From the NCBI GenBank assembly GCA_018057705.1, contig JAGPDF010000001.1:62001-126000 (forward strand): DNA of 64,000 bases. The letters run 5' to 3'. Position numbers and translations under genes: made by a program. Under the pieces are notes generated by a model. The model did not search any database, was not told where the DNA came from, and was given only the letters and a program-made list of their open reading frames with translations. The DNA comes from Thermoanaerobaculia bacterium. GTDB taxonomy: Bacteria; Acidobacteriota; Thermoanaerobaculia; Multivoradales; JAGPDF01. Of the stretch, positions 8,452 to 64,000 are shown piece after piece (the first letter of the stretch is position 1; each line of letters starts with the position of its first letter).

Positions 8452-9003
8452 ATGTTCGCGTGGTCGCGCTTCCTCGTCTTGGGCCTGCTCCTCGCCGTGA
8501 CCGGCGGGCCCGGCGAGCCCGCGATCGAGGACCTCCGGGTGACCGTCGACGGCGGCCAGGTGCTCGTCGGCTTCCACCTCGCCAACGGCCTCGACGCCGA
8601 AACCAGGGAACGGATCGCCTCCGGCCTGCCGACGAGCTTCATCTACGAGCTCGAGTTGAAGCGCGATCGCAAGCACTGGTGGGACAGGGGTCTCGATTCG
8701 ACGGTGCTCGAGGTGGTCGCCATGTACAACGCCGTCACCCGCGAGTACCTGGTCAACACCAAGCAGGGCGGCCGGCTCATCGAGAGCCGCACGGTGCGCG
8801 ACGAGGAGGAGCTCGAGCGCGCCATGACCCACTTCGAGAGCTTCCCCGCCTTCGCCCTCGAGGCCGACGCGGACGGCTCGCGTTTCCTCGTCCGCGTGCG
8901 CGTCGACCTCGGACCCGGCGCCGTGCTGGGGTTCATCCCCTACCAGCGCTCCACCGAATGGGTCGAGTCCAACAAGGTCCGGTTGCACGCGCCGGAGCCC
9001 TGA
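8452..9003 (+). CDS. DUF4390 protein, exported
   Basis: Protein of 183 residues with an N-terminal hydrophobic segment (FLVLGLLLAVTGG) that looks like a signal peptide, followed by a beta-rich domain. Family features: EDLRVTVDGGQVLVGFHLANGL, the arginine/tryptophan segment RDRKHWWDRGLD, and GFIPYQRSTEWVESNKVRL at the end. DUF4390 proteins are commonly encoded directly before NtrY-like kinases, as here (10-base gap). An accessory or periplasmic sensory role with the kinase is therefore plausible but unproven. Confidence 0.82.
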   Translation: MFAWSRFLVLGLLLAVTGGPGEPAIEDLRVTVDGGQVLVGFHLANGLDAETRERIASGLPTSFIYELELKRDRKHWWDRGLDSTVLEVVAMYNAVTREYLVNTKQGGRLIESRTVRDEEELERAMTHFESFPAFALEADADGSRFLVRVRVDLGPGAVLGFIPYQRSTEWVESNKVRLHAPEP

Positions 9004-9013
9004 GACGAGCGCC

Positions 9014-11215
9014 ATGGACCTTCGCGAGCTCTTCGGGCAGCGTCGCAAGGACGGCCGGTACGTCGCCGCCGCCCTCATTCTGGTGCTCGCCGTCCTCACC
9101 CTCATCTACTACCTGATCCAGCGCGGACGCGACCTGCCTTCGGTGCTGGTCACGAACAAGGTGCTGCTGTTCGTTCTGGTCTACGCCGACGCGCTGCTCA
9201 TCCTGGTCATCCTCTTCGTGCTGGCGAGGAACCTCGTGCGGCTCTGGCTCGAGCGCCGCCAGCGCGCCCTCGGCGCGAAGTTCAAGACCAAACTGGTCGC
9301 GACCTACGTCGGCCTCTCGCTGGTGCCCGTGCTGCTGCTCTTCTTCTACGCCAGCGAGCTGCTGCAGGGCTCGATCGACCGCTGGTTCTCGAGCTCGCTG
9401 CGCACCGTCCTCGAGCAGAGCAGCGCCGTGGCGCAATCGCTGCAGAAGGAGATCGGCGACCGCAACTATCGCGAAGCGCTGCGGGTGGCGCGGCGGCTCT
9501 CGGGCCTGAACCTCGAGGAAGCCGAATCACGCGCGGCCCTCCCGGCCAAGCTCGCGCAGTGGCGCGACGAGTCGGGCGTCGCCTTCCTCGGCGTCTACCT
9601 CGAGACCGACTTCGTCCACGCCGTGGTCGACCCGGAGTCCGGCCTGAACGACCTGCCGGAGGTGGGGCGCAACTTCCTGCTCGACGCCTCCGGCAGTGGC
9701 CGGGCCAACCGGGTGCTGCTGCCGGCCGGCACGCGCGGACGGCTGATCCTCGCCGCCGCCGTGGGTGCCGCTGCCGGCGGCACGCGGCGCCCGATCGTCG
9801 TGGCCGGAACCGTTCTCGATCCGGTCTCCTCCGGCCAGAGCGAGGAGCTCATCCAGTCGTATCAGACCTACCGCCAGCTCGAAGTGCAGAAACGCGATTT
9901 CGCCGCCAGCTACTGGCTGATGTTCGTGCTCGTGACGCTGCTCATCCTGCTCGCCTCCTCCTGGGCGGGTCTCTTCCTCGCCCGCCGCCTGATGCTGCCC
10001 ATCCAGGCGCTCGCCGAAGGTACGCGGCGGGTCGCGAGTGGCGATCTCGACCAGCAGATCGAGGTCGCCACGGACGACGAGATGGCCACGGTGGTCGAGT
10101 CGTTCAACAGCATGACGCTGGAGCTGCGGCGCAATCGCGAAGAGATCGACCGCAACCACCGCGACCTCCTGGCGGCGAACCGCGGCCTCGCCGAGGAGCG
10201 CGCGCTGGTCGGCGCCATCCTCGAGAATCTGGCCGCCGGCGTCATCGCGCTGGGGAGCGACGGCACGGTGCTGTCCGCCAACGCCGCCGCACTCGCCATG
10301 CTCGCCCAGAAGGAGGGCGATCTGCTGGGCCGGAGGCTCGCCGAAGCCTGGAGCGACTCCGAGCGCGCGCGCCTCGAAGGCCTGATCGAGACGGCAGAAG
10401 GCCACCCCGGCGAGGCCGCCGAGGTGAGCCTCGTCCTCGGCGGCGAGCGCCGTACCTTCGAGGTCAAGGTATCGGATCTGCGCGACGGCACCGGGCGCGA
10501 CGGCGGCAGAGTCGTCGTGCTCGAGGACCTCTCCGACCTGATCAAGGCGCAGAAGCTCGCCGCCTGGACCGAGGCCGCCCAGCGCATCGCGCACGAGATC
10601 AAGAACCCCCTCACACCGATCCGTCTCGCCGCCGAACGCCTGCGCGTCAAGCATCGGGACGGCGATCCCGCGATCGGCGAGCTGCTCGAAGAGAGCGTCG
10701 CCATCATCGTGCGCGAGGTGGGCAAGATGCAGTCGCTGGTCGACGAGTTCTCGCGCTACGCCCGCATGCCTGGACCGCAGCTCGCGGATACCGCCATCGA
10801 CGGCCTGGTCGCCGAGGTGGTGGCGCTCTACCGTGACGTCAAGCCCGGCGTCGCCATCCGCACCGCGGTCGCGCCGGAGATCGGCGAGGTCTGGGTCGAT
10901 CCGGAGCAGCTGCGGCGAGTGCTCATCAACCTCCTCGACAATGCGCTCGAGGCGACCGACTCGCCCGGCGAGGTCGAGGTCCGCGCCGAGCGCCGCGGCG
11001 AGCGTCTGATCCTGGAGGTCGCCGACAGCGGAACCGGCATCCCCGCGGAGGATCGCGACAAGCTCTTCCTGCCCTTCTTCTCGCGCAAGAAGCGCGGCAC
11101 CGGCATGGGGCTCGCCATCGTGCACCGCATCGTGAGCGACCACAACGGCTCGATCCGAGTCGCCGAGAACCTGCCGCGCGGCTCGGTCTTCACGATCGAG
11201 CTGCCGGTTCGCTGA
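9014..11215 (+). CDS. NtrY-like membrane sensor histidine kinase
   Basis: Protein of 733 residues. Four hydrophobic segments lie in the first 330 residues (AALILVLAVLTLIYYLI; LLFVLVYADALLILVILFVLA; YVGLSLVPVLLLFFYAS; YWLMFVLVTLLILLASSW), enclosing a sensor loop. Next come a HAMP domain (MLPIQALAEGTRRVASGDLDQQIEV), a PAS domain, the HisKA box RIAHEIKNPLTPIRLAAERL with the phospho-acceptor histidine, and the ATPase domain (INLLDNALEA; ADSGTGIP; GTGMGLAIVHRIV). This is the NtrY plan. An NtrX-type response regulator normally follows, but here the next gene is YqeY. The partner must lie elsewhere or be shared. Confidence 0.94.
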   Translation: MDLRELFGQRRKDGRYVAAALILVLAVLTLIYYLIQRGRDLPSVLVTNKVLLFVLVYADALLILVILFVLARNLVRLWLERRQRALGAKFKTKLVATYVGLSLVPVLLLFFYASELLQGSIDRWFSSSLRTVLEQSSAVAQSLQKEIGDRNYREALRVARRLSGLNLEEAESRAALPAKLAQWRDESGVAFLGVYLETDFVHAVVDPESGLNDLPEVGRNFLLDASGSGRANRVLLPAGTRGRLILAAAVGAAAGGTRRPIVVAGTVLDPVSSGQSEELIQSYQTYRQLEVQKRDFAASYWLMFVLVTLLILLASSWAGLFLARRLMLPIQALAEGTRRVASGDLDQQIEVATDDEMATVVESFNSMTLELRRNREEIDRNHRDLLAANRGLAEERALVGAILENLAAGVIALGSDGTVLSANAAALAMLAQKEGDLLGRRLAEAWSDSERARLEGLIETAEGHPGEAAEVSLVLGGERRTFEVKVSDLRDGTGRDGGRVVVLEDLSDLIKAQKLAAWTEAAQRIAHEIKNPLTPIRLAAERLRVKHRDGDPAIGELLEESVAIIVREVGKMQSLVDEFSRYARMPGPQLADTAIDGLVAEVVALYRDVKPGVAIRTAVAPEIGEVWVDPEQLRRVLINLLDNALEATDSPGEVEVRAERRGERLILEVADSGTGIPAEDRDKLFLPFFSRKKRGTGMGLAIVHRIVSDHNGSIRVAENLPRGSVFTIELPVR

Positions 11216-11252
11216 GTCCCCCGGCTCGCCGGAGCGCGCGGCGGACTGACTG

Positions 11253-11258
11253 TACAAT
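11253..11258 (+). promoter_or_regulatory. Putative -10 box (TACAAT) of the YqeY gene, leaderless type
   Basis: TACAAT, close to the consensus TATAAT and preceded by TG, ends 6 bases before the ATG. There is no room for a ribosome binding site. Confidence 0.55.
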
Positions 11259-11264
11259 CGGCCG

Positions 11265-11738
11265 ATGCAGGAGACACCGCAGGCGAGGCTCTCAAGGGAG
11301 ATACAGGAGACGATGCGGTCGGGCGACAAGGTCCGGCTGCAGACGCTCCGGATGCTGCTCACCGAAGTCCAGAGCGCCGGTCTGCGTGGACCCGCCGCCC
11401 AGGGCGAGGTCGACGAGGCGGCGTTTCAGGCGCTGGTGCGAAAGGCGATCAAGCAGCGTCGCGAGTCCGCCGAGCAGTTTCGCAGCGGACACCGCCCGGA
11501 GCTCGCCGCGAAGGAGGACGTCGAGGCCGGTATCCTCTCCGGCTACCTGCCGCAGCAGGCCACAGAAGTGGAGCTGCGGCTCGCGATCGCGGGAATCGTC
11601 AACGAGGTCGGCGCGCAGGGTCTCGCCGGGCCGGCAGCCCTGGGGGCGGTCATGAAGGCGGCTCTGGCGCGCTTCGCGGGCACCGCCGACGGCGCCCTCG
11701 TGAATCGCCTCGCCCGCGAGCTGCTTGCCGCACGGTGA
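11265..11738 (+). CDS. GatB/YqeY domain protein
   Basis: Protein of 157 residues and full family length. The N-terminal LSREIQETMRSGDKVRLQTLRMLLTEVQ is the YqeY hallmark, and the C-terminal helical domain (GYLPQQATEVELRLAIAGIVNEVGAQGLAGPAALGAVMKAAL) matches the tail domain of GatB that contacts tRNA. The role is unclear; a link to tRNA-dependent amidation is assumed from the fold. It lies 4 bases upstream of selB. Confidence 0.93.
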   Translation: MQETPQARLSREIQETMRSGDKVRLQTLRMLLTEVQSAGLRGPAAQGEVDEAAFQALVRKAIKQRRESAEQFRSGHRPELAAKEDVEAGILSGYLPQQATEVELRLAIAGIVNEVGAQGLAGPAALGAVMKAALARFAGTADGALVNRLARELLAAR

Positions 11739-11742
11739 GGCG

Positions 11743-13728
11743 GTGAGCTCCCTTCTCGTCGGCACCGCCGGCCACGTCGATCACGGCAAGACTGCGCTCG
11801 TCCGCGCGCTCACCGGCATCGACTGCGACCGTCTCGAAGAAGAGAAGCGACGCGGTATCACCCTCGATCTCGGCTTCGCGCACCTCGCGGGCACCGGATC
11901 GGCCGCGACCGCGGCCAGCGAGATCTCCTTCGTCGACGTCCCGGGACACGAACGTTTCCTGCACAACGCCTTGGCCGGACTGGGCGGAGTGCGGCTCCTT
12001 CTCCTCGTCGTTGCCGCCGACGAGGGGATCCGACCGCAGACCCGCGAGCACCTGGAGATCGCCGAACTGCTCGAGCTCCCCGGCCTCATCGTCGCGCTGA
12101 ACAAGGTCGACGCCGTCGATGCCGAGACCGCTGGGCTCGCCGAGCTCGAGATCACCGACCTCCTCGCGGGTACGCGATTCTCCGGAGCGCCGATCTTCCC
12201 GGTCTCGGCCCTGACCGGCGAGGGCGTCCCGGCGTTGCGCGCCGCTCTCGAGAAAGCAGCCCGCGAGCTCGCGCCCTCGGCCCGCGACGCCGATCCCGCC
12301 CGGCTGCCGATCGACCGCGCCTTCCTGGTCAAGGGGCAGGGCGTCGTGGTGACCGGCACTCTGATCTCCGGAACGGTCGCTCCTGGCGACCTCCTCGAGC
12401 TCCTGCCGTCGCGGCTCGCGGCCCGCGTGCGCTCGGTCGAGGTGCACGGCAAACCCAGGCGGGCCGCGGCCGGGGAGCGCACCGCCCTGCAGCTCGCAGG
12501 CGTCGAGCTCGCGGCGCTCGCCCGCGGCATGGAGCTCGCGACGCCGGGAGCGCTGCGCTCCACCCGCCGACTGCTCGTGCGTTGGCGGATGCTCGCGAGC
12601 TCGCCGGTCGCGCTCGCGAGCCCCCTCGAACCGGTGGCCGTGCGGGTGCATCTCTATGCCACCGAAACCGTGGGTACGGCGCGTCCGCTGACTGACACAG
12701 GCCTCGCCCCCGGCGATACGGACCTCGTCGAGATCGCCCTCGCGACGCCGGTCGTGGCGGTGCGCGGCGATCGCATCGTGGTCCGCCGCCCATCGCCGCC
12801 CGCGACGATCGGCGGCGGGACGATCCTCGATCCCTGGTGGCGGCGCAAGCGCCGCGGCGATCCCGCGGCTCGGATGCTTGCGCTCGCCGGGGACGAGGCA
12901 TCGGCGCTCCTCGCCTGGTCCACCGAGTCCGCCGAGCACGGCCTCACCGCCGCCGCGGCAGCGGCGCGCACCGGCAGAAGCGCCGAAGAGACCGGACGCC
13001 TGCTCGCCGCGCTCGAAGAGCGGGGCGAGTTGGTGCGCCTCCGGCCGGAGGCGGCGGACGAACGCACGCGCAACACCGAGGCGCGCTATCTGCGGCCCGA
13101 GACGCTCGCAGCCGTGCGCCGCGGCGCACGCGAAGCACTGGCTCGGTTCTTCGCCGAACATCCCCTCGAGCTCGGCCTGGCCAAGGCTGCTGCGGCGCGG
13201 TTGCTCCTGCCCGGCGCCGCGCGGGCGCTCGCGGACCTCTGGTTCGCGCGTCTCGCAGCGGCCGGCGACATCGACATCTCCGCTGGCGATGTGCGCTTCC
13301 CGGGCCGCGCCCTCGAGCCGCCGGCCGAGCTGTCGCCGCTCGCCCGCGCCATCGTCGAGCGCTACGCCGCGGCCGGGCTGACGCCGCCTTCGCCAGGCGA
13401 AGTCGCGCGCGCCCTCGACGCCAAACCGCAGATCGTCGAGGGACTCATCCAGCACCTGGTCAAGCGCAAGGAGCTCGTGCGCCTGCCCGGCGGCCTCATT
13501 TTCGCGAACGCGACGATCGCGCACCTCGTGGACGAGCTTCGCGCCACCGGCTGGTCCCGCTTCTCCATCGTCGCCTTCAAAGGCCGCTTCGGGCTCTCGC
13601 GCAAGTGGACGATTCCGCTGCTCGAGCATCTCGACAATGTCGGCGTGACGGGACGCGTCGGAGAAGAGCGCGAGCTGCGCGCCGCAGCGGACACATCCAA
13701 GGCCGTGAAGCCGAACTCATCGCGCTGA
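11743..13728 (+). CDS. selB: Selenocysteine-specific translation elongation factor SelB
   Basis: GTPase that carries Sec-tRNA to UGA codons with a SECIS hairpin. The protein has 661 residues. The G domain shows GHVDHGKTALVRALTG (G1), RRGITLDLGFA (G2), DVPGHERFLHNALAG (G3) and NKVDA (G4). Beta-barrel domains follow (FLVKGQGVVVTGTLISGTVAPGD), then C-terminal winged-helix repeats that bind the SECIS element (SRFSIVAFKGRFGLSRKWTIPLLEHLDNVGVTGRVGEER). The start is probably the GTG giving MSSLLVGTAGHVDHGK; a TTG six codons upstream is the alternative. Its presence implies that the organism makes selenoproteins. selA, selC and selD are not in the window. The last codons are part of an 18-base direct repeat. 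Confidence 0.95.
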   Translation: MSSLLVGTAGHVDHGKTALVRALTGIDCDRLEEEKRRGITLDLGFAHLAGTGSAATAASEISFVDVPGHERFLHNALAGLGGVRLLLLVVAADEGIRPQTREHLEIAELLELPGLIVALNKVDAVDAETAGLAELEITDLLAGTRFSGAPIFPVSALTGEGVPALRAALEKAARELAPSARDADPARLPIDRAFLVKGQGVVVTGTLISGTVAPGDLLELLPSRLAARVRSVEVHGKPRRAAAGERTALQLAGVELAALARGMELATPGALRSTRRLLVRWRMLASSPVALASPLEPVAVRVHLYATETVGTARPLTDTGLAPGDTDLVEIALATPVVAVRGDRIVVRRPSPPATIGGGTILDPWWRRKRRGDPAARMLALAGDEASALLAWSTESAEHGLTAAAAAARTGRSAEETGRLLAALEERGELVRLRPEAADERTRNTEARYLRPETLAAVRRGAREALARFFAEHPLELGLAKAAAARLLLPGAARALADLWFARLAAAGDIDISAGDVRFPGRALEPPAELSPLARAIVERYAAAGLTPPSPGEVARALDAKPQIVEGLIQHLVKRKELVRLPGGLIFANATIAHLVDELRATGWSRFSIVAFKGRFGLSRKWTIPLLEHLDNVGVTGRVGEERELRAAADTSKAVKPNSSR

Positions 13729-13986: not shown

Positions 13987-16935
13987 ATGAAGAGATTCAA
14001 GAAAGCAGTCGGACTCGCCCTGCTCTTCGCGTTCGTCGCTTCGGGCGTCGCCGTCGCTCAGGGCATTCCCACGGGCCGCCTCTCGGGCCGCGTCTCCGAT
14101 GCCGAGGGCAACGGCGTGCCGGGAGTGTCGGTCGAAGTCTCCTCGGCGGCGCTCCAGGGCGTACGCACGACGGTGACCGACCTGAACGGCGACTACGTGC
14201 TTCCCAGCTTGCCGCCGGGCGAATACACCGCGACCTACACCATGGACGGTTTCGAGACGCAGAGCCGAACGTCCAGGCTCGCCTCTTCGCAGGCGCTGCA
14301 GTTGGACATCGACATGTCGCTCGCCGCGGTCACCGAGACGATCGAGGTCACCGGCGAGGCCGTCACCCTCATCTCGAAGGACAACACCAACGCCACGACC
14401 ATTTCGCAGGACATCCTCGAAGAGCTGCCGGGCGCCCGCACCCAGCTCGCGGCCGTCGCTCTTTCGCCGGGAGCTTCGGCGACCGGTCCCGCCGGCGCGA
14501 TCACCATTTCCGGCGCACAATCCTGGGAGAACACCTACTCGATCAACGGCGTGAACGTGAACGACAACCTCCGTGGCCAGCCGAACGCGCTCTTCATCGA
14601 AGACGCCATCGAAGAGACGACGACCTCGACCTCGGGCATCTCGGCCGAGTACGGGCGCTTCGCGGGCGGCATCATCAATACGGTGACGAAATCGGGCGGC
14701 AACGAGTTCCACGGCAGCGTCCGCGACACCCTCACCAATCAGAGCTGGAACAGCAAGAACGAGTTCTCTCCGGAACCCGAGGACAAGGTCCGCGGTGTCT
14801 ATGAAGAGACCGTGGGCGGCAGGATCATCCGGGACAAGCTGTGGTTCTTCGTCGCTGGTCGGCAGCTCGAGACCGACGCCGTCGCGACCACCAACCTGAC
14901 GAACATCCCGTACAACGCCACGAACGAGCAGGAGCGCTACGAAGGGAAGCTGACCTTCTCGCCGACGGCGAACCATCGCTTCACCGGCTCCTACATCGAC
15001 ATCTCCCAGGAGCAGCTCACGGGGCACGGTGGCAACCTGAACTACCTGGTCGACCTCTCCGGGCTGCACACGCGGAGTCTTCCGAACACGCTCATGGCGG
15101 CCAACTACTCCGGCGTCCTGACTTCGAACTTCTTCGTCGAGGCGCAGTACTCCGAGCGGTCCTTCAACTTCGAGGCCACCGGCGGCGCGGACCCCTCGCT
15201 CGCCGGCGGCACGCCGATCTTCGACCCCGCCAACGGCATCATCTACAACGAGCCCATCTTCTGCGACGCGAGCCTCTGCCCGGACGGCGGCGACGAGCGC
15301 GCGAGCGAGAACTATCTCGCCAAGGCGAGCTACTTCCTGTCGACCGAGAACACCGGCTCGCACGACATCGTCGCCGGTTTCGACAGCTTCGACGACATCC
15401 GCACCAGCAACAACTATCAGTCGCCGAACGACTTCTTCGTCTTCGCCGACCAGTCGATCATCCGCGACAACGTCGTCTACCCGGTGATCGGCAGCCAGGC
15501 CGGTGACGACGGCGGCAATTCGTACATCGCCTATTATCCGATTCTCGCCAACAGCCTCGGAACGCATTTCAAGACCAATTCCCTGTTCGTCAACGACCGC
15601 TGGCGCCTTTCCGACAACCTGAGCTTCAACGTCGGCTTGCGCTACGACAAGAACGACGGCAAGGACGCCACCGGCAACGAGATCACCAAGGACAGCGCCT
15701 TCAGCCCGCGGCTCGGCGCGAACTGGAACCCGGACGGCGGTGGTGTCTGGCTGCTGAACGCCTCCTACGGCCGCTATGTCGCTGGCATCAACAACGGCAT
15801 CGCCGACTCCGGCTCCTCCGCCGGACAGGCGGCCACCTTCCACTACAGCTACTTCGGACCGGACATCAACGTCGACGTCCTCCCTGGCCAGACGCCGGTG
15901 AGCAGCGAGGAGGCCATGCGGCGGGTGTTCGCCTGGTTCGACTCGGTGGGCGGCCTCGACAACACCGCCCTGCTGCAGTTGGTCAACCTTCCTGGCGGCG
16001 GCACCGTCGTCGCGGACGGCATCGGCTCGACTTATGCCGACGAGATTTCGATCGGCGGCGTGCGCAGCTTCGGCGCCAAGGGGTCGGTCCGCGCCGACCT
16101 GGTCTACCGTGAGTTCGGCAACTTCTACGTCACCCAGAAGGACACTTCGACCGGGAAAGTGCTCGATGCCAACGGCAACCTGGTGGACCTCGGGGTGGTG
16201 AAGAACAACGACACCAATCTGGAGCGCGAGTATCTCGGTCTCCAGACCTCCTTCGATCTGCGCGCCACCGATCGCCTCACCATCGGCGGCGGTTACACGC
16301 TGTCCCAGGCGCAGGGAAACTTCGAGGGTGAGGCGGCCGGTGTCGGTCCGGTCACTTCGACCCTCGAGAGCTATCCGGAGTACAAAGAGGCGCGATGGTT
16401 CGCGCCGACCGGCGACCTGCTCATCGACCAGCGCCACAAGTTGTCGCTGTTCGCGGTCTGGGAGGCGTTCAAAACCGAGCGCCAGCGTCTGGCGATCAGC
16501 GGCCGGCAGCTCTACAACTCCGGATTTCCGTACTCGGCGGTCGGTCCGGTCGGTACCCGGGCTTTCGTGACCAATCCCGGCTACGAGACGCCGCCTTCCT
16601 CGGTCAACTATTTCTTCTCCGACCGCGGCGCTTTCAAGACGGACGACATCAGCTCGACCGCTCTGGGCTTCAACTACTCGCTCTTCTTCGGCGACTTCGA
16701 GATCTTCTCCCAGCTGGACATCCAGAACGTGTTCAACGAGGACGGAGTCATCGGCGTCAACACCGCCGTATTCACCAGCCGCACCGATCCGACGCTGCAG
16801 CCGTTCAATCCCTTCACCGACACTCCGGTCGAAGGTGTGCACTGGCGTAAGGGCCCGAACTTCGGCAAGGCGACTTCCGTCAACAACCTGCAGTTGCCGC
16901 GTACCTACATCCTGTCGCTGGGCGTGCGCCTCTAG
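13987..16935 (+). CDS. TonB-dependent outer-membrane receptor, Oar-like, with N-terminal carboxypeptidase-regulatory domain
   Basis: Outer-membrane protein of 982 residues. Signal peptide MKRFKKAVGLALLFAFVASGVAVAQ; then a CarboxypepD_reg-like domain (LSGRVSDAEGNGVPGVSVEVSS ... TDLNGDYVLPSLPPGEYTATY); then a plug domain (EELPGARTQLAAVALSPG; YSINGVNVNDN; ISAEYGRFAGGIINTVTKSGGN); then a long beta-barrel ending in a typical C-terminal strand (YILSLGVRL). Known Oar-like receptors import or bind large substrates such as peptides or glycans, but the ligand here is unknown. GGGAGGA lies 6 bases before the ATG. It is followed by a terminator and then by two phosphatase/sulfatase-fold lipoproteins, which could act on an imported substrate (inference). 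Confidence 0.95.
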   Translation: MKRFKKAVGLALLFAFVASGVAVAQGIPTGRLSGRVSDAEGNGVPGVSVEVSSAALQGVRTTVTDLNGDYVLPSLPPGEYTATYTMDGFETQSRTSRLASSQALQLDIDMSLAAVTETIEVTGEAVTLISKDNTNATTISQDILEELPGARTQLAAVALSPGASATGPAGAITISGAQSWENTYSINGVNVNDNLRGQPNALFIEDAIEETTTSTSGISAEYGRFAGGIINTVTKSGGNEFHGSVRDTLTNQSWNSKNEFSPEPEDKVRGVYEETVGGRIIRDKLWFFVAGRQLETDAVATTNLTNIPYNATNEQERYEGKLTFSPTANHRFTGSYIDISQEQLTGHGGNLNYLVDLSGLHTRSLPNTLMAANYSGVLTSNFFVEAQYSERSFNFEATGGADPSLAGGTPIFDPANGIIYNEPIFCDASLCPDGGDERASENYLAKASYFLSTENTGSHDIVAGFDSFDDIRTSNNYQSPNDFFVFADQSIIRDNVVYPVIGSQAGDDGGNSYIAYYPILANSLGTHFKTNSLFVNDRWRLSDNLSFNVGLRYDKNDGKDATGNEITKDSAFSPRLGANWNPDGGGVWLLNASYGRYVAGINNGIADSGSSAGQAATFHYSYFGPDINVDVLPGQTPVSSEEAMRRVFAWFDSVGGLDNTALLQLVNLPGGGTVVADGIGSTYADEISIGGVRSFGAKGSVRADLVYREFGNFYVTQKDTSTGKVLDANGNLVDLGVVKNNDTNLEREYLGLQTSFDLRATDRLTIGGGYTLSQAQGNFEGEAAGVGPVTSTLESYPEYKEARWFAPTGDLLIDQRHKLSLFAVWEAFKTERQRLAISGRQLYNSGFPYSAVGPVGTRAFVTNPGYETPPSSVNYFFSDRGAFKTDDISSTALGFNYSLFFGDFEIFSQLDIQNVFNEDGVIGVNTAVFTSRTDPTLQPFNPFTDTPVEGVHWRKGPNFGKATSVNNLQLPRTYILSLGVRL

Positions 16936-56462: not shown

Positions 56463-58658
56463 GTGAGATTCCGATTCCGCCTCGCCCTGGTCTTCCTCCT
56501 GCTGTCGGCCGTCCCGCTGACGGTCCTGGCGCTGTACTCCTTCACCACCTCGAGCCGCGCCCTGCGCCAGGCCGCCGAGGCGGAGGCGAAACTCATGGCG
56601 CGCGACCTCGAACAGCGGGTCGAGGGAGTCTCGACGGAGATCGACCGCAGCGTGAAAGCGCTGGCGCGTCTGCCCGCCGCCTACTGGTTGCGCTCGGAGA
56701 ACGGCACCTCCGACGGCAAGCTCGACGCCCAGGTCTTCGCCGGCCTCGCCCAGGCGTTGCCGTTCATCGAGGACTTCCGCTTCGTACCCAGGGGCGCCGC
56801 CGCTGGCGCCGCGCGCGGCGCCGCTGAGCCCCGCAAGACGCAGGTCGCTGTCCAGCCACTTTCGCCGCAGGAGGTGCGGCAACTCGACGAGGAGCGGCTC
56901 CGCCAGGCTGAAGAGGCGCGGCGGCGCGGCGACGAGCAGCTCCGCCTGGCCGAGAAGAGCGTCACGGCGTCCCTGCTCCATCTTCCGGCGGGCCTGCCGG
57001 AGGCCGACCGCAAACGAATCCAGGAGGAGCTCGAGCAGGTGCGCGCCGAGATCGGGCGCAGTTTCGCGTCCCGCCGCGAGAACCCTGGCGTGCCGCCGGC
57101 CCCCCCGCTGCCGCCGACCGCGCCGGTCCCGGCACCGGCTCCGGTCGCAGAAGTCGCAGGTGCGGCTCAGGTGGCTCCGGTCGCCCCGGTGGCGGCACCG
57201 GCGCCTGTTGCCTCGCCGAACGCCGCACCCATGCCGCTCGCGGACGGCGTCTCCTGCCCGGTGACCGACGACGGCCAGGTCGTCGGCGAGATCCAGGGGC
57301 GGCTCAAGGCCAAGGAGATTCTGCGCTCGGTGCTCGGGCAGACGCATCGCGAGCAGGGCGAGGTCCCGTTCGCGATCGACAGCGAGAACAAGCTCTACGT
57401 CGCGACCGGTGCCGACGGCGAAATCCTGCGCAAGCTCCCCTCGGTGGGCGCGTTGCGCGGCGAGGCGAGCGTCGCAGCGGCCGAGAAAGGGACGGCCGAC
57501 GACTGGGTCGTGGTCGCCCGCCGCGACCCGGTCTCGGGTCTGCGCTTCGGCATTGCGCGGCCGATCTCGCAGGCGATGAAGGAGCTGCGCCGGGCGACGG
57601 CGTGGAACTTCGTGGCCGGGTTCTTCCTGGTCGGCATCGCGACCATCGGCATGATTCCACTCACCAGCGGGATGGTGAAGAGCGTGCAGCAACTGGAGGC
57701 GGGAGCGGCGAGGATCGCCGGCGGCGATCTTCAGACGCGCGTGCCGGTGCGTTCGCGCGACGAGTTCGGACGGCTCGCCGGGAGCTTCAATCACATGGCT
57801 GAGCAGCTCGCGGAGCATCAGGCGCGCCTGATCGAGCAGGAGCGCCTGGGGAAGGAGCGCGAGATCGAACGGCGCCTGCTCGAAGCCGAGAACGGGCGCA
57901 AGAGTCAGGAGCTCGAAGAGGCCCGGCTCTTCCAGTTGTCGTTGCTGCCGCGCCAGCTTCCGCAGTACCAGGGCATCGAGCTCGCGGTCGCGATGTCGAC
58001 CGCGACCGAAGTGGGCGGCGACTACTACGACTTCCGTACCGGCGCGAACGGCGACCTGCTGCTGGCGATCGGCGACGCGACCGGCCACGGCGCGGCCGCG
58101 GGGACGATGGTCACCGTGGTCAAGAGCCTCTTCCTGGCGGCCGGCGACGACGCCTCCCCGGCCGGGTTCCTGCGTCGCGCCACGGGCATGGTCCACGGCA
58201 TGGGACTGTCACGCATGGCAATGGCGCTCGCGGTCGCGAGGCTTGCGGGCCGCGCGCTCACGATCTCCTCCGCTGGCATGCCGCCGGCGCTGCACTTTCG
58301 CGCCGCGACCGGCGAGGTCGATGAGATCGCGCTTGCCGGCATGCCGCTCGGGGCCCGCAACGACTTTCCGTACTCTGAGCGCCGGCTCGAGATCGCTCCC
58401 GGGGACGTCGTCCTGCTGATGAGCGACGGCTTTCCCGAGCTGCCCAATCCGACCGGCGAGCCGCTCGGTTACGAGCGCGCGCGAGCGCATTTCGCCGTCG
58501 CGGCATCGCGGGGTACCTCCGGCGAAGGAGCGGGCGCCGGCGGCATCGTCGCGGCTCTCGAGCAGGCCGCCGCCAACTGGTCGGGGGCCGACGCCGGCCC
58601 CGACGCCGCACCGGCCCCGTCGGATGACGTCACCTTCCTCGTTCTGCGCGCCACCTGA
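56463..58658 (+). CDS. Membrane PP2C-type phosphatase (SpoIIE) with HAMP domain
   Basis: Protein of 731 residues. Membrane helix near the N terminus (LALVFLLLSAVPLTVLALYSF), a long extracytoplasmic part with coiled-coil segments and a Pro/Ala-rich stretch, a second helix (FVAGFFLVGIATIGMIPL), HAMP (AGAARIAGGDLQTRVPVRSRDEFGRLAGSFNHMAEQL), then the SpoIIE/RsbU phosphatase with metal-binding GGDYYDF, IGDATGHGAAAGTMV and LLMSDGFPELPNP. Such proteins dephosphorylate anti-anti-sigma factors in partner-switching systems. No anti-sigma genes are adjacent. GTG start, no Shine-Dalgarno. Confidence 0.93.
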   Translation: MRFRFRLALVFLLLSAVPLTVLALYSFTTSSRALRQAAEAEAKLMARDLEQRVEGVSTEIDRSVKALARLPAAYWLRSENGTSDGKLDAQVFAGLAQALPFIEDFRFVPRGAAAGAARGAAEPRKTQVAVQPLSPQEVRQLDEERLRQAEEARRRGDEQLRLAEKSVTASLLHLPAGLPEADRKRIQEELEQVRAEIGRSFASRRENPGVPPAPPLPPTAPVPAPAPVAEVAGAAQVAPVAPVAAPAPVASPNAAPMPLADGVSCPVTDDGQVVGEIQGRLKAKEILRSVLGQTHREQGEVPFAIDSENKLYVATGADGEILRKLPSVGALRGEASVAAAEKGTADDWVVVARRDPVSGLRFGIARPISQAMKELRRATAWNFVAGFFLVGIATIGMIPLTSGMVKSVQQLEAGAARIAGGDLQTRVPVRSRDEFGRLAGSFNHMAEQLAEHQARLIEQERLGKEREIERRLLEAENGRKSQELEEARLFQLSLLPRQLPQYQGIELAVAMSTATEVGGDYYDFRTGANGDLLLAIGDATGHGAAAGTMVTVVKSLFLAAGDDASPAGFLRRATGMVHGMGLSRMAMALAVARLAGRALTISSAGMPPALHFRAATGEVDEIALAGMPLGARNDFPYSERRLEIAPGDVVLLMSDGFPELPNPTGEPLGYERARAHFAVAASRGTSGEGAGAGGIVAALEQAAANWSGADAGPDAAPAPSDDVTFLVLRAT

Positions 58659-58680: not shown

Positions 58681-59745
58681 GTGACCCAGCCCGGCGACGA
58701 GTCCGATCTCTTTCTCTCTCTCACCCCCGAACGCGTACTCGACGCCGTCGAGGCGGCGGGGGTGGCGGTGCGGCCGCTCTGCTATCCGCTGAACTCGTTC
58801 GAGAACCGGGTCTACGAGGTGGAGCTCGCCGACCGCTCGCGCGTGGTGGCGAAGTTCTACCGCCCGCAGCGCTGGACGGCGGGAGCGATCCTCGAAGAAC
58901 ACCGGTTCCTCGCCGAGCTCGATGCCGAGGAGATTCCGGTCTGTCCGGCGCGCCCGTTCCCCGACGGCTCGACGCTGGCGACGACCGCAGGGGGGATCTT
59001 CTACACCCTGTTCGACCGCAAGGGCGGACGCGCTCCGGCCGAGCTCGACAGCCGGGGCGCCTCGCGTCTCGGCATGCTGGTCGGGCGGTTGCACGTTGTC
59101 GGCGCCCGGCGCCCCGAGGCCGACCGGCTCCCTCTCACGAGCGAGGCCTATGTGCGCCGCGACCTCGATTGGCTCGAACGCGCCGCGATCGTGCCGCGCC
59201 GGCTCGCCGCGCGCTACTTCGCTGCCGGGCGCGCGATCGCCGACGCCTACGACCGCATGTCCGCCGGCGTGGCGGTGCTCCGCCTGCACGGCGACCTGCA
59301 CCTGGGCAACGTCCTCGACCGCGACGGCGAGCTCCGTCTGCTCGACTTCGACGACTGCATGATCGGGCCGGCGGTGCAGGATCTCTGGCTCGCCCTGGGC
59401 GGCCGCGACACCGCGACCACGACGTTGCGCGAGGAGTTCCTGGAGAGCTACGAGCAGTTCCGGCGGTTCGACCGCGCCGAGCTCCGGCTCATCGAGCCGC
59501 TGCGCGGCCTGCGCATGGCGCACTACGCCGCTTGGCTGGCGCGCCGCTGGCACGACCCGATCTTCCCCAGGAACTGGCCGCATTTCGGCACCGAGGAGAG
59601 CTGGGAGCGCGAGACCGTCGACCTCGAGGAGCAGCGCATCGTCGTCGACCGCGTCGAGCGCGGGGGCTCGATCGCCCCGCCGCCAACCGCCGAGGACGAA
59701 GAGGCGCTCACCAACAAGGACCTCTTCTGGGACTGGAACGGCTGA
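58681..59745 (+). CDS. srkA: Stress response kinase SrkA/RdoA (YihE family)
   Basis: Protein of 354 residues of the APH/choline kinase-like fold. Family segments: PLNSFENRVYEVELADRSRVVAKFYRPQRWTAGAILEEHRFLAELDAEEIPV, the catalytic HGDLHLGNVLDRDGELRLLDFDDCMIGPAVQDLWL and a C-terminal WPHFGTEESWERE. SrkA protects E. coli from stress-induced death. It lies 22 bases after the phosphatase gene on the same strand. Start GTG. Confidence 0.94.
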   Translation: MTQPGDESDLFLSLTPERVLDAVEAAGVAVRPLCYPLNSFENRVYEVELADRSRVVAKFYRPQRWTAGAILEEHRFLAELDAEEIPVCPARPFPDGSTLATTAGGIFYTLFDRKGGRAPAELDSRGASRLGMLVGRLHVVGARRPEADRLPLTSEAYVRRDLDWLERAAIVPRRLAARYFAAGRAIADAYDRMSAGVAVLRLHGDLHLGNVLDRDGELRLLDFDDCMIGPAVQDLWLALGGRDTATTTLREEFLESYEQFRRFDRAELRLIEPLRGLRMAHYAAWLARRWHDPIFPRNWPHFGTEESWERETVDLEEQRIVVDRVERGGSIAPPPTAEDEEALTNKDLFWDWNG

Positions 59746-59825
59746 CGGCAGGGCACCGATGCCTCGCCTTCGACACCGGGACCGATGGCGCCCCGACCCG
59801 GATTGCGGCCGGCTCCGCGGGGACA

Positions 59826-59831
59826 TAGGAT
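59826..59831 (+). promoter_or_regulatory. Putative -10 box (TAGGAT) of the zinc-ribbon gene
   Basis: TAGGAT ends 10 bases before the ATG; a 5' leader of only a few bases would result. Confidence 0.35.
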
Positions 59832-59841
59832 CGCCTCGCGC

Positions 59842-60120
59842 ATGAGCGACGAACCCAAGGGGGGCGCTGAGTGGCCGGACGCCGGCGACGCGACGCCTGC
59901 TGCCCCGCCCGCCGGCTGGCAGAGTCCGCCCGCAGCGGTCTATGGTCTCGAGCATTCGCTGCGGTGCCCGGCCTGCAAGGACGAGATCGATCAGCTCTTC
60001 GTGATTCGCCTGCTCCGCACGCGCGTGAACTTCATGTCGTCGTTGCCGCGCAGCGGCCGGCTCCTCGCTTGTCCGAAGTGCCGGACGATTCTGCCGGGCG
60101 AGCTGGGAGCGGTGCTCTAG
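59842..60120 (+). CDS. Small zinc-ribbon protein of unknown function
   Basis: Protein of 92 residues. The first 35 are Pro/Ala-rich and likely disordered. The rest holds two CxxC pairs 34 residues apart (LRCPACKDE and LACPKCRTILPGE) that should bind one zinc ion. Between them is a hydrophobic and basic segment QLFVIRLLRTRVNFMSSLPRSGR. I do not recognise the family. It could be an RNA- or protein-binding adaptor. It converges with the GGDEF-TonB gene. Confidence 0.72.
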   Translation: MSDEPKGGAEWPDAGDATPAAPPAGWQSPPAAVYGLEHSLRCPACKDEIDQLFVIRLLRTRVNFMSSLPRSGRLLACPKCRTILPGELGAVL

Positions 60121-60156: not shown

Positions 60157-61551
60157 TCAGCGCGGCGGGCCCTCGAGCAGGAAGCGGATCGCCAGGCGCG
60201 TCTCCATTTCGACCGCCACGCCGTCGCGCCGCCCGGGACGGAACTGGGCCGACAGCGCGGCCTCGCGCGCCGATTCGTCGAAGCCGAAGCCGGCCGGAGG
60301 TCCGACCGGTTCGACCGAAAGCACCCGGCCTGTCGCATCCACCTGCACCTTGAGCTCCACCGTCGCCATCCGGCGACGGGCGCGCGCGACCCGCGGATAG
60401 TCGGGCCGGATCGCCCGCAGGAGCTGCGGCGGTTCGATCTGCGGCAGGCCGCGAACGCCGCCGGTGCCTGCGGGGCCGCCGCTGGCTCCACTCGATCCGG
60501 TCGCTCCCGTCGCTCCAGTGCCCCCGGCCGGCCGGCTTCCGCCGCCGGGCGCCGACGCCGCTTCCGGCGGCGGCAGGAGCTCGAGCCCCTCGCGTACTCT
60601 GCGCTCGCCGATCTCCATCCCGGTGCCGTTCTCCCCCGGCCCGACCGTCCCGGCGGCTGCTCCCGGGTCGAGCCCCGCGGAGCCGGCGACCGGGCGAGGG
60701 TCGCCGGCCTCGGTCAGTCGGGCTTCGAGCTCCCGGATGCGCGCCTCGTAGAGCCCGCGGTCGTCGGCCGGACGGGCCCCTGCGAGCTCGGCCTGCAGGC
60801 GCCGCACCTCGTCGCGCAGACGAACCAGCTCCTCCTCGTCGCGGACGACGATCTCCGCCAGCGGGACCGTATCCGAGGATACCGGAGCGAGCACGTCCGG
60901 CGGCGGCGGCGGCGACGCGCGGAGGCGGCGCCACTCCACCCAGCCGGCGATGGCGAGCACGGCGACCGCCAGGCCGGAGGCGAGGAGCAGCCTGCGGCGC
61001 CCGCGGTCGGCAGCCGCCGCCGGTGCCCGCCGGGAGCGCTTTTCTTCGTAGAGCCGGCGGTCCGCCACCGCCAGGACCTCTTCGCCGGTGGCGCCGTCGA
61101 CCGGAAAGCTCGCGACACCCATGCTGAACGACAAAGGCAGAACGAGCTGCTCACCGCTCTCCGGCGAGGTGATCTCGACCGTGGAGAGGGCGGAGCGTGC
61201 ACGCTCTGCCAGGACGCGGGCCTCTTCGGCGCCGGCGCCGAAGAGCACGACGACGAACTCGTCACCGCCGTAGCGGATCAGGCGGTCTTCGGCCCGAAAG
61301 CTCTCGCGCAGCCGGTCGGAGGCGCGATGCAGGACGTCGTCGCCGGCCAGGTGGCCGTGGGCGTCATTGATCTCCTTGAAGAAATCGAGGTCCAGCACGA
61401 GGAGGGTGACCGTCCCCTGGGTCGCAACGAGCTCCACCCAGTCCTCGTCCAGCAGACGGCGCAGATAGCGCCGGTTCCAGGCACCGGTGAGATCGTCGCG
61501 CAGGGCGAGATCCACGGGTTCGCTCGGCCCCGGAGGGATAGATCTTTCCAC
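60157..61551 (-). CDS. GGDEF diguanylate cyclase fused to a TonB C-terminal domain
   Basis: Protein of 464 residues. The N-terminal cytoplasmic GGDEF domain is intact (DDLTGAWNRRYLRRLL; LDLDFFKEINDAHGHLAGDDVL; LIRYGGDEFVVVLFGAG; FSMGVASFP). A membrane helix follows (RRLLLASGLAVAVLAIAGWVEW, near residue 225), then a coiled coil (EEELVRLRDEVRRLQAELAGA), a Gly/Ala/Pro-rich spacer and a C-terminal TonB-type domain (PPQLLRAIRPDYPRVARARRRMATVELKVQVDATGRVLSV...LSAQFRPGRRDG). It may link c-di-GMP synthesis to an outer-membrane partner across the periplasm (inference). GTG start with TACGAT 7 bases upstream. Confidence 0.9.
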   Translation of the reverse strand: MERSIPPGPSEPVDLALRDDLTGAWNRRYLRRLLDEDWVELVATQGTVTLLVLDLDFFKEINDAHGHLAGDDVLHRASDRLRESFRAEDRLIRYGGDEFVVVLFGAGAEEARVLAERARSALSTVEITSPESGEQLVLPLSFSMGVASFPVDGATGEEVLAVADRRLYEEKRSRRAPAAAADRGRRRLLLASGLAVAVLAIAGWVEWRRLRASPPPPPDVLAPVSSDTVPLAEIVVRDEEELVRLRDEVRRLQAELAGARPADDRGLYEARIRELEARLTEAGDPRPVAGSAGLDPGAAAGTVGPGENGTGMEIGERRVREGLELLPPPEAASAPGGGSRPAGGTGATGATGSSGASGGPAGTGGVRGLPQIEPPQLLRAIRPDYPRVARARRRMATVELKVQVDATGRVLSVEPVGPPAGFGFDESAREAALSAQFRPGRRDGVAVEMETRLAIRFLLEGPPR

Positions 61552-61621: not shown

Positions 61622-64000
61622 ATGTTCCTACGTCGCCACTTGCCAGCGCTTTCCACCTGCTTCGCCCTCGCGCTGCCGGCGCTCCACCCAGCCGCACCGG
61701 CAGCCGCCACCAACGCCCTCGCCGCCGCCACCGCGGTCTCGTCGGGAGCCGCGCCGGGAGCGGCGGGGGAAGCCGCGGGGGGAGCCTCTGGGCCCGCGCT
61801 CGACATCGCGGCCATCATGGCGCGCGACTGGATCGGGACGCCGCCGGAGGAGCCCTACTGGGCGGACGACGGCAAGTCCATCTTCTATCGCCAGCGACGC
61901 CCCGGCAGCGAGATTGTGGATCTCCATCGCGTCGACATCGCGAGCGGCCGGAGCGAGCACATCGCCCCTGCGGAGCTCGGCAAAGTCGATGCTCCCGACG
62001 GTGTCTGGTCGCGCGACCGCAAGCTCGCGGCCTTCATCCGAGAAGGCGATCTCTTCGTCAAGGAGGCCGGCCGCAAGACCCCCCGCCAGCTCACCCGCAC
62101 CGCCGAGATCGAAAGCGCTCCGCTCGTCCTCGCGACGGGCAGGGCCGTCGCCTTCCGGCGCGGCGACGCCTTTCACGCCATCGACCTCGAAAGCGGCCTC
62201 GACTCGACCCTCGCCGACCTGCGCACCACGAAAGACCCGGACGCACCGCCCACGCCGGCCGTGCCATCCGACGCCGCGGGCTTCCTTGCCGGACAGCAGT
62301 TGCGCCTGTTCGAGGTTCTCGCCGAGCGCAAGGCCCGTAAGGAGGAGCTGGTGGCCGAGACTCGCGCCCGGCGTACCGCGGATCCGACACGCGCACCGCC
62401 GCCGTTCTATCTCGGCGAGAAGCGCGCGATCCTGCGCGCCGACCTCTCCCCCTCGGGAGGCCACCTGCTCGTTGCCCTCGGCCCGGAGCGACCGGAGCCG
62501 ACGGGCGATTCGTCGAGCCGAGGGGGGGGCAAGGAAGACTCGATGCCGGTCTTCGTCACCGAATCCGGCTACGTCGATGTGAAGAAGATCCGCCCCAAGG
62601 TCGGGACCGGCTCACCCGAATCGCCGACCCTGCTGCTGCTCGACCTCACCCGTCAGACGCAGGTCGAGCTCGACCTCTCCGTCCTGCCAGGCCTCGCCGA
62701 CGATCCGCTGGCCGAGCTGCGTCAGGCGGCCAGCGCCGCCCAGGCAGCGGCATCGGCCCGACCGGAGCCAGCGCCTGCCCCGGCGCCGACGCCTTCGGTT
62801 GCGCCTGCGCCCCGGCCGGTTCAGCTCGCCGAAGTCGTCTGGAGCGAGGACGGGAGCCGCGTCGCACTCCAGTTCTTCTCCGAGGACAACAAGGACCGTT
62901 GGCTGGCGGTCGTCTCTCCCGGCGCAGCGTCCTCGCCGCCCCTCACGCCTCTCCACCACGAGAGCGACCCTGCCTGGCTCGGCTGGCGCTTCACCGAGTT
63001 CGGCTGGATGAAGGACGGCCGCGAGCTCTGGTACCTGTCCGAGGATTCGGGCTTCTCGCATCTCTACGTGCAGGCCGCAGGCGCTGCGAGGCGTGCTCTC
63101 ACCCAGGGTCCGTTCGAAGTCGACCGGCCGCGGCTCGCGCGCGACGGACGCAGCTTCTTCGTCTCCGCGAACCGCGAAGGCGCCGGCATCTACGAGGCCT
63201 ACCGCGTGCGCGTCGATACCCCGGGGCTCGAACGCCTGACCTCTGCCAACGGCATGACCTATGCGCTGCCTTCGCCGGACGAAAAACAGCTCCTGCTCAC
63301 CAGCTCCTGGGCGACGCGACCGCCGGAGCTCTTCGTCCAGGCGGCGCGCGCCGGCGCCGCTGCGAAGAAGCTGACCTCGACGACCACGCCGGCCTTCTCC
63401 GCCGTCGCCTGGAGCGCTCCCGAGATCGTCCGCATCCCCTCGACGCATTTCGCCGGCAATCTCCAGGCGCGCGTCTACACGCCGCCCGGACGAGCTCCCG
63501 ACACCCGGTCGCCCGCGGTCGTCTTCATCCATGGCGCGGGCTACCTGCAGAACGCCCACGAGGGCTGGTCGGACTACTCCCGGGAGTTCATGTTTCACAC
63601 CCTGCTCGCGCGCGCCGGCTACGTCGTGCTCGACCTCGACTACCGCGCCTCGTCGGGCTACGGACGCGACTTCCGCACCGCAATCTACCGCCAGATGGGC
63701 GAACCGGAGCTCGAGGATCTCGCCGACGGCGTCGCCTGGCTGGTCGAACAGAGGGGCGTGGACGCCGGGCGGGTCGGCACCTACGGCGGCAGTTACGGTG
63801 GCTTCCTGACCATGATGGCGCTCTTCAAACGGCCGGAGCTCTTCGCGGCCGGGGCGGCGCTGCGGCCGGTGACCGACTGGGCGCACTACAACCAGGGTTA
63901 CACCTCGGCGATTCTCAACACTCCCGAAGTCGACCCCGAGGCCTACCGCCGGAGCTCACCGATCGAGTTCGCCGCCGGCCTCGCGAAACCACTGCTCATC
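61622..64000 (+). CDS. S9-family prolyl oligopeptidase/dipeptidyl peptidase, cut by the window edge
   Basis: 793 residues are visible and the frame is open at the last base. Signal-like N terminus (LPALSTCFALALPALHPAAPAAA) and an Ala/Gly-rich linker, then beta-propeller blades (PYWADDGKSIFYRQRRPGSEIVDLHRVD; WMKDGRELWYLSEDSGFSHLYV), then the alpha/beta hydrolase domain: VVFIHGAGYLQNA, DLDYRASSGYGRDFR and the nucleophile GTYGGSYGGFLTMMALF. The catalytic Asp and His lie beyond the window. It is an exported serine peptidase of the DPP IV/acylaminoacyl group. GAGGAG lies 9 bases before the ATG. Confidence 0.94.
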   Translation, partial: MFLRRHLPALSTCFALALPALHPAAPAAATNALAAATAVSSGAAPGAAGEAAGGASGPALDIAAIMARDWIGTPPEEPYWADDGKSIFYRQRRPGSEIVDLHRVDIASGRSEHIAPAELGKVDAPDGVWSRDRKLAAFIREGDLFVKEAGRKTPRQLTRTAEIESAPLVLATGRAVAFRRGDAFHAIDLESGLDSTLADLRTTKDPDAPPTPAVPSDAAGFLAGQQLRLFEVLAERKARKEELVAETRARRTADPTRAPPPFYLGEKRAILRADLSPSGGHLLVALGPERPEPTGDSSSRGGGKEDSMPVFVTESGYVDVKKIRPKVGTGSPESPTLLLLDLTRQTQVELDLSVLPGLADDPLAELRQAASAAQAAASARPEPAPAPAPTPSVAPAPRPVQLAEVVWSEDGSRVALQFFSEDNKDRWLAVVSPGAASSPPLTPLHHESDPAWLGWRFTEFGWMKDGRELWYLSEDSGFSHLYVQAAGAARRALTQGPFEVDRPRLARDGRSFFVSANREGAGIYEAYRVRVDTPGLERLTSANGMTYALPSPDEKQLLLTSSWATRPPELFVQAARAGAAAKKLTSTTTPAFSAVAWSAPEIVRIPSTHFAGNLQARVYTPPGRAPDTRSPAVVFIHGAGYLQNAHEGWSDYSREFMFHTLLARAGYVVLDLDYRASSGYGRDFRTAIYRQMGEPELEDLADGVAWLVEQRGVDAGRVGTYGGSYGGFLTMMALFKRPELFAAGAALRPVTDWAHYNQGYTSAILNTPEVDPEAYRRSSPIEFAAGLAKPLLI

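Follow-up and report, generated by a model that had tools for sequence, protein, structure and literature searches.

A diguanylate cyclase joined to a TonB-like C-terminal domain in Acidobacteriota: a candidate transenvelope protein without the motor-contact motifs of TonB

TonB domains are familiar as power couplers, and the presence of such a domain in a protein that also carries a diguanylate cyclase raises the question whether the protein is driven by ExbBD or serves signalling across the cell envelope. The question is posed by an open reading frame in a 64,000-nucleotide stretch of a Thermoanaerobaculia contig (JAGPDF010000001.1, positions 62,001 to 126,000), hereafter the window. The original prediction for this frame had described an intact cytoplasmic GGDEF domain, joined through one membrane helix and a spacer to a TonB-type domain expected in the periplasm, and had proposed that contact with an outer-membrane partner could control c-di-GMP, or the reverse. 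The features of the frame are as follows.

60157-61551, minus strand: whole coding sequence, 464 amino acids, in the order GGDEF, transmembrane helix, helical segment, linker, TonB_C (open frame, GTG start)
61027-61506, minus strand: GGDEF diguanylate cyclase domain, residues 16-175 (Pfam PF00990, E 1.7e-38)
61285-61296, minus strand: RxxD inhibitory-site motif (R86, D89), conserved without exception in the 10 aligned orthologs
61255-61269, minus strand: GGDEF active-site motif, residues 95-99 (unchanged in all 10 aligned orthologs)
60934-60990, minus strand: single transmembrane helix, residues ~188-206, without the TonB SxxxH motif (hydropathy and motif test)
60706-60861, minus strand: predicted helical region on the periplasmic side, perhaps a coiled coil, residues 231-282 (AlphaFold2 helices; mean pairwise identity 0.31)
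60442-60705, minus strand: linker rich in Gly, Pro and Ala, residues 283-370, predicted to be disordered (pLDDT below 50 through most of 285-366)
60181-60408, minus strand: TonB C-terminal domain, residues 382-457 (Pfam PF03544, E 7.5e-12)
60247-60249, minus strand: Ala435, at the Trp column of true TonB (Ala or Ser in 13 of 13 GGDEF-type domains)

Exactly two Pfam families, GGDEF and TonB_C, were recognized in the 464-residue protein, with nothing else up to an E-value of 0.1, and the scores of 132.4 bits for PF00990 and 46 bits for PF03544 compare with curated cut-offs of 23.8 and 24.6, respectively. The first GTG is taken as a provisional start codon, and an alternative in-frame GTG 12 codons downstream still precedes the GGDEF domain. 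The metal, nucleotide, GGDEF and RxxD residues were invariant in all orthologs that cover them, and on this sequence basis an active cyclase with product inhibition is expected. The predicted topology places the GGDEF domain in the cytoplasm and the TonB_C domain beyond the inner membrane. The heptad pattern of the intervening helical segment was unconvincing in the window protein (at best 9 of 14).

The full protein was modelled with AlphaFold2 from an input alignment of ten sequences, which resulted in pLDDT values of mostly 81-98 in the GGDEF and TonB_C blocks. The model contains one unbroken helix (residues 156-211) that runs from the last GGDEF helix through the membrane, followed by helices at 231-258 and 262-281 beyond the membrane helix, and by a region of which most is disordered (285-366). 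Structure comparison of the GGDEF part with solved GGDEF domains gave Z-scores of 16-19, and the GGDEF structure of YfiN was among its best structural matches. Since a fold search with the full-length model returned GGDEF domains alone among the matches listed, the C-terminal domain was folded separately (pLDDT 93.8). The top 17 Foldseek matches of this isolated domain in the PDB were TonB or TonB homologues, seven of them with E below 0.001, and they included TonB C-terminal domains solved in receptor-bound form; the best match was 6i97_D (TM-score by target 0.82, rmsd 2.1, 88 columns). Moreover, the sequence profile of the domain matched TonB entries among PDB sequences, with a best E-value of 7.6e-11. 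The structural elements of the original prediction, including the TonB-like nature of the C-terminal fold, are thus borne out at the level of sequence and model.

The domain order recurred in twelve further Acidobacteriota genomes, two of which offer contig-end fragments only, and orthologs with the identical order share 39-52% identity. These genomes belong to four families of the class, with one genome (G384) from another class of the phylum. In the family of the window protein the order was found in G001, G003, G004 and G005, the copy in the last being truncated by a contig edge within the GGDEF domain; in G006 the GGDEF-membrane helix end and a matching TonB_C end lie on separate contigs, and in G002 the TonB_C end alone is visible, as a contig-end fragment. 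The other carriers are G038, from another family of the order, and G083, G113, G114 and G116, from two other families of the class. A phylum-wide sample yielded matches at E 1e-70 in six of 396 genomes, and the distribution is therefore sporadic. Elsewhere, searches at E 1e-55 of the phyla to which L058 (Paraburkholderia; 398 genomes) and L029 (Gemmatimonadetes; 200 genomes) belong gave no full-length match, which in both cases is a weak indication of absence since these searches had no positive control there. A contig scan with the window protein matched relatives through the GGDEF half only, and no plasmid record covered 80% of the protein. In ten aligned proteins the mean pairwise identity was 0.57 for GGDEF and 0.51 for TonB_C, as compared to 0.23-0.31 for the helix, loop, coil and linker between them; both end domains are conserved while the middle drifts, which indicates that both ends are under selection.

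The possibility that the two domains were joined by an assembly error or a chance read-through deserved mention, since the genome is a draft of 177 contigs. It was refuted by the orthologs at 39-52% identity, in which one uninterrupted frame with the identical order is kept in other genomes of several families, and its probability is now negligible.

The genes adjoining the window gene are the following.

61622-64000, plus strand: divergent neighbour, S9 peptidase (prolyl oligopeptidase/DPP-IV type), running past the window end (Pfam)
59818-60120, plus strand: small Zn-ribbon-like protein (weak Pfam matches below cut-off; kept in two relatives)
58681-59745, plus strand: APH-type phosphotransferase (Pfam PF01636, E 2.6e-29)
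56463-58658, plus strand: HAMP-SpoIIE type phosphatase (Pfam)

Conservation of the SpoIIE, APH, Zn-ribbon and S9 peptidase neighbours is confined to the family, and the neighbours in other lineages are an S8 peptidase with a DUF2231 protein, an M3 peptidase with a reprolysin, an FtsX permease, a methyltransferase and an LPG synthase. Among the neighbours examined, no adjoining partner gene is conserved outside one family, and no ExbBD or receptor gene was seen beside the GGDEF-TonB_C gene at the window locus or in the relatives; the gene context therefore names no partner. For TonB genes, linkage to ExbB/ExbD or to a receptor gene is frequent but not invariable. Peptidases of the S8, M3, reprolysin and S9 types adjoin the gene in several lineages (L099:1489-3747; L152:5158-7269 and 8765-12061; window 61622-64000), possibly by chance. 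In G038, the GGDEF-TonB gene is preceded within a few bases by a phosphatidylglycerol lysyltransferase-like gene of the same orientation (L155:6258-7361, plus strand), and may share an operon with this lipid-modification enzyme.

Contacts of TonB with its motor have been located in two short motifs, a His-bearing motif in the membrane helix (SHLS) for ExbB and a D-box just after the helix for ExbD (PMC10907165), and the strict seven-residue D-box pattern from that study was applied here. In all 11 GGDEF-TonB proteins whose membrane helix could be read, this helix contained no His and no SxxxH-type motif, and the strict D-box was absent from the members scanned, i.e., 11 of 11 GGDEF, 19 kinase-type and 2 DUF4388 proteins. 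Brief alternating Pro-flanked stretches follow the helix in L121, L122 and L124, and such stretches in two or three members (PTVTVEG, PTMTVTP, PIVVAP) might, judged by sequence, be degenerate or relic D-boxes. The true TonB of the same genome (G000:C2:88476), which is followed by ExbB and by two frames called ExbD-like from their sequence, served as the positive control; it carries AxxxH in its membrane helix and, after the helix, a D-box in PIQVSFFQAAAP that matches the strict pattern (PIQVSFF). The Trp column of the C-terminal domain, which corresponds to Trp213 of E. coli TonB, is occupied by Ala or Ser in 13 of 13 GGDEF-type domains and by Trp in the TonB of the same genome. Consequently, the normal function of TonB with ExbBD, to which the original prediction referred, is not supported for this protein by motifs or gene context. 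Of the receptor co-occurrence that had been suggested as a check, the adjoining part was not found, and elsewhere the genome holds approximately 12 Plug-domain receptor matches, which are possible partners of the arm, as well as two ExbB-type proteins that are both encoded away from the window locus. Within the window, a weak Plug-domain (TonB-dependent receptor) match lies at 14389-14670 on the plus strand, some 46 kb from the GGDEF-TonB_C gene. An arm without the motor contacts of TonB looks more like a sensor than like a part of a transporter.

The half of the protein from the membrane helix to TonB_C also occurs in other proteins of the phylum, namely in kinases, in pseudokinases and in DUF4388 proteins. 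Among 20 further tail proteins without GGDEF that were scanned, 15 contained a Pkinase domain and two DUF4388. In the genome of the window protein, an apparently active Ser/Thr kinase with one helix and TonB_C is encoded at G000:C12:56836-59937 (L101:2837-5938, plus strand), with a Pkinase domain and an N-terminal response-regulator match below cut-off. Another gene, at G000:C2:95745-97697 (L100:5746-7698, minus strand) and approximately 7 kb away from the genes of the true TonB and of ExbB, encodes a pseudokinase with a membrane helix and TonB_C, in which HRD is replaced by HGF and DFG by GFE; the catalytic HRD and DFG are likewise lost in the consensus of its relatives, and a pseudokinase that bears a TonB-like tail is thus conserved across the order. 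A DUF4388-type domain precedes a helix-linker-TonB_C tail at L139:1498-3111 (minus strand) and L142:251-1963 (plus strand). In a tree of 55 TonB_C domains, a branch with 95/91 support sets apart the tails of the GGDEF and DUF4388 proteins and, with one exception, those of the kinases; the TonB of the genome itself falls outside this branch. The branch is partly a product of sampling, because the rows were collected by similarity to the tails and comprise 101 columns only. The tree supports, and does not prove, a single origin of the tails, and since the best tree requires two label changes for the GGDEF tails, these may have been acquired once or twice. At least one tail-model match at E 1e-12 was present in 100 of 149 genomes of the class, a count that includes any TonB_C domain that is close enough.

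The reading preferred here, which is given an even chance, is that of a transenvelope diguanylate cyclase whose arm spans the periplasm, serves for sensing or anchoring and works without ExbBD power. It rests on the domains, their conservation, the absent ExbB and ExbD contact motifs and the common TonB_C branch; topology, cyclase activity, the dimer switch, the ligand and the direction of signalling are inferred parts of the model. The GGDEF domain would reside in the cytoplasm, its last helix leading directly into the sole membrane helix, and the helical, possibly coiled-coil, segment and the long flexible linker would bring the TonB-fold domain to the outer membrane or the cell wall. There, this domain may capture a beta-strand from a partner in the outer membrane or periplasm, comparable to TonB and the TonB box, or bind the wall. 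Binding would shift the pairing of the helices and hence that of two GGDEF domains, and the altered pairing would turn c-di-GMP synthesis up or down, with feedback through the I-site on top, all without drive by ExbBD. The original proposal that c-di-GMP is controlled through contact with a partner in the outer membrane is the leading idea, as a candidate only.

Simple anchoring is the strongest rival to this reading. The arm might fix a constitutive, I-site-limited cyclase at envelope sites and thereby produce c-di-GMP locally without any sensing, which is in agreement with a linker so flexible and poorly conserved that it suits tethering better than force transmission, and with the gliding TonB-like proteins GltG and GltJ, which are presumed to connect the two membranes of the envelope (PMC5349195). 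However, the continuity of the last GGDEF helix with the membrane helix in the model favours coupling, and the same tail on kinases and pseudokinases suggests a signalling role, so that anchoring alone is possible and somewhat doubtful. Kinases with wall-binding ectodomains are common, and by comparison with these the TonB-like domain could sense peptidoglycan or a soluble periplasmic ligand. The occurrence of the tail on Ser/Thr kinases fits such a role, as does SjdR, a short TonB-annotated protein that affects peptidoglycan structure and has no TonB-like periplasmic domain itself (PMC8262864). The predicted fold is nevertheless that of TonB C-terminal domains, receptor-bound ones included, and sensing of the wall is accordingly given a low probability.

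An energised TonB, in which an ExbBD-driven arm opens outer-membrane transporters and the cyclase reads transport or is co-regulated with it, would account for the TonB fold and for a linker long enough to span the periplasm, and the genome does provide two ExbB-type proteins and the Plug-domain receptors. Against it stand the missing His/SxxxH and strict D-box motifs, the Ala or Ser in place of the C-terminal Trp, the dedicated TonB that the genome encodes separately, together with ExbB and ExbD, and the general absence of a cytoplasmic domain from TonBs (PMC8262864). On the motif evidence an ExbBD-driven TonB is unlikely.

In the preferred reading of a cyclase with an ExbBD-free arm, the protein would be part of an Acidobacteriota set in which a TonB_C lineage has been combined with several kinds of cytoplasmic signalling module. 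It is proposed, tentatively and with a little less than even confidence, that this set constitutes an undescribed class of transenvelope receptors, in which one TonB_C lineage that is free of ExbBD acts as the common sensory arm of diguanylate cyclase, kinase, pseudokinase and DUF4388 modules and relays the state of outer-membrane receptors or of the wall directly to cytoplasmic signalling.

Comparison with known systems shows which parts of the protein are familiar. With E. coli type TonB (PF03544) it has in common the single membrane helix, the long flexible periplasmic linker and the C-terminal domain of TonB fold; it differs in the added cytoplasmic cyclase domain, and in having no SxxxH-type motif, strict D-box, conserved Trp or ExbBD or receptor gene seen alongside. 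The kinase- and DUF4388-type proteins of the phylum have a homologous half from helix to TonB_C, miss the same TonB motifs and lie on the same side of the tree, and differ in carrying a kinase, pseudokinase or DUF4388 domain in place of GGDEF on the cytoplasmic side. The cytoplasmic domains of GltJ/AgmX, presumably a Zn finger and a GYF domain, and like those of GltG presumably unrelated to GGDEF, were not found in the window protein (Pfam up to E 0.1). Likewise, YfiN, which presumably has a periplasmic PAS-like sensor and a HAMP domain ahead of GGDEF, differs from the window protein, which contains neither domain and has one helix only (Pfam, model and hydropathy). In their general design, GltG and GltJ (AgmX) of Myxococcus gliding are similar to it in that they combine a single membrane helix with TonB_C motifs and a helical part in the periplasm, and they are modular proteins thought to reach the outer membrane (PMC5349195). 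In the YfiBNR system, periplasmic and outer-membrane events gate a membrane cyclase, and YfiN (TpbB) resembles the window protein as an inner-membrane diguanylate cyclase with periplasmic control and an outer-membrane partner (PMC4887326, PMC4655355). YfiN needs the separate YfiR and YfiB proteins, whereas the window cyclase, with its GGDEF domain at the N-terminus, itself bears the reaching arm.

Searches of the open-access literature returned nothing relevant on GGDEF combined with a TonB C-terminal domain, and no paper on kinase- or DUF4388-type proteins with a membrane helix and TonB_C. Both domains are textbook material; their combination, and the wider set of TonB_C tails free of motor contacts, are absent from the open-access papers searched. 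PF03544 matches in Acidobacteriota should be counted as energy transducers only after their helix motif and D-box have been checked. Finally, if the proposed reading is true, the protein would provide a one-protein route from the state of the outer membrane or wall to c-di-GMP signalling, for which YfiBNR needs three proteins.
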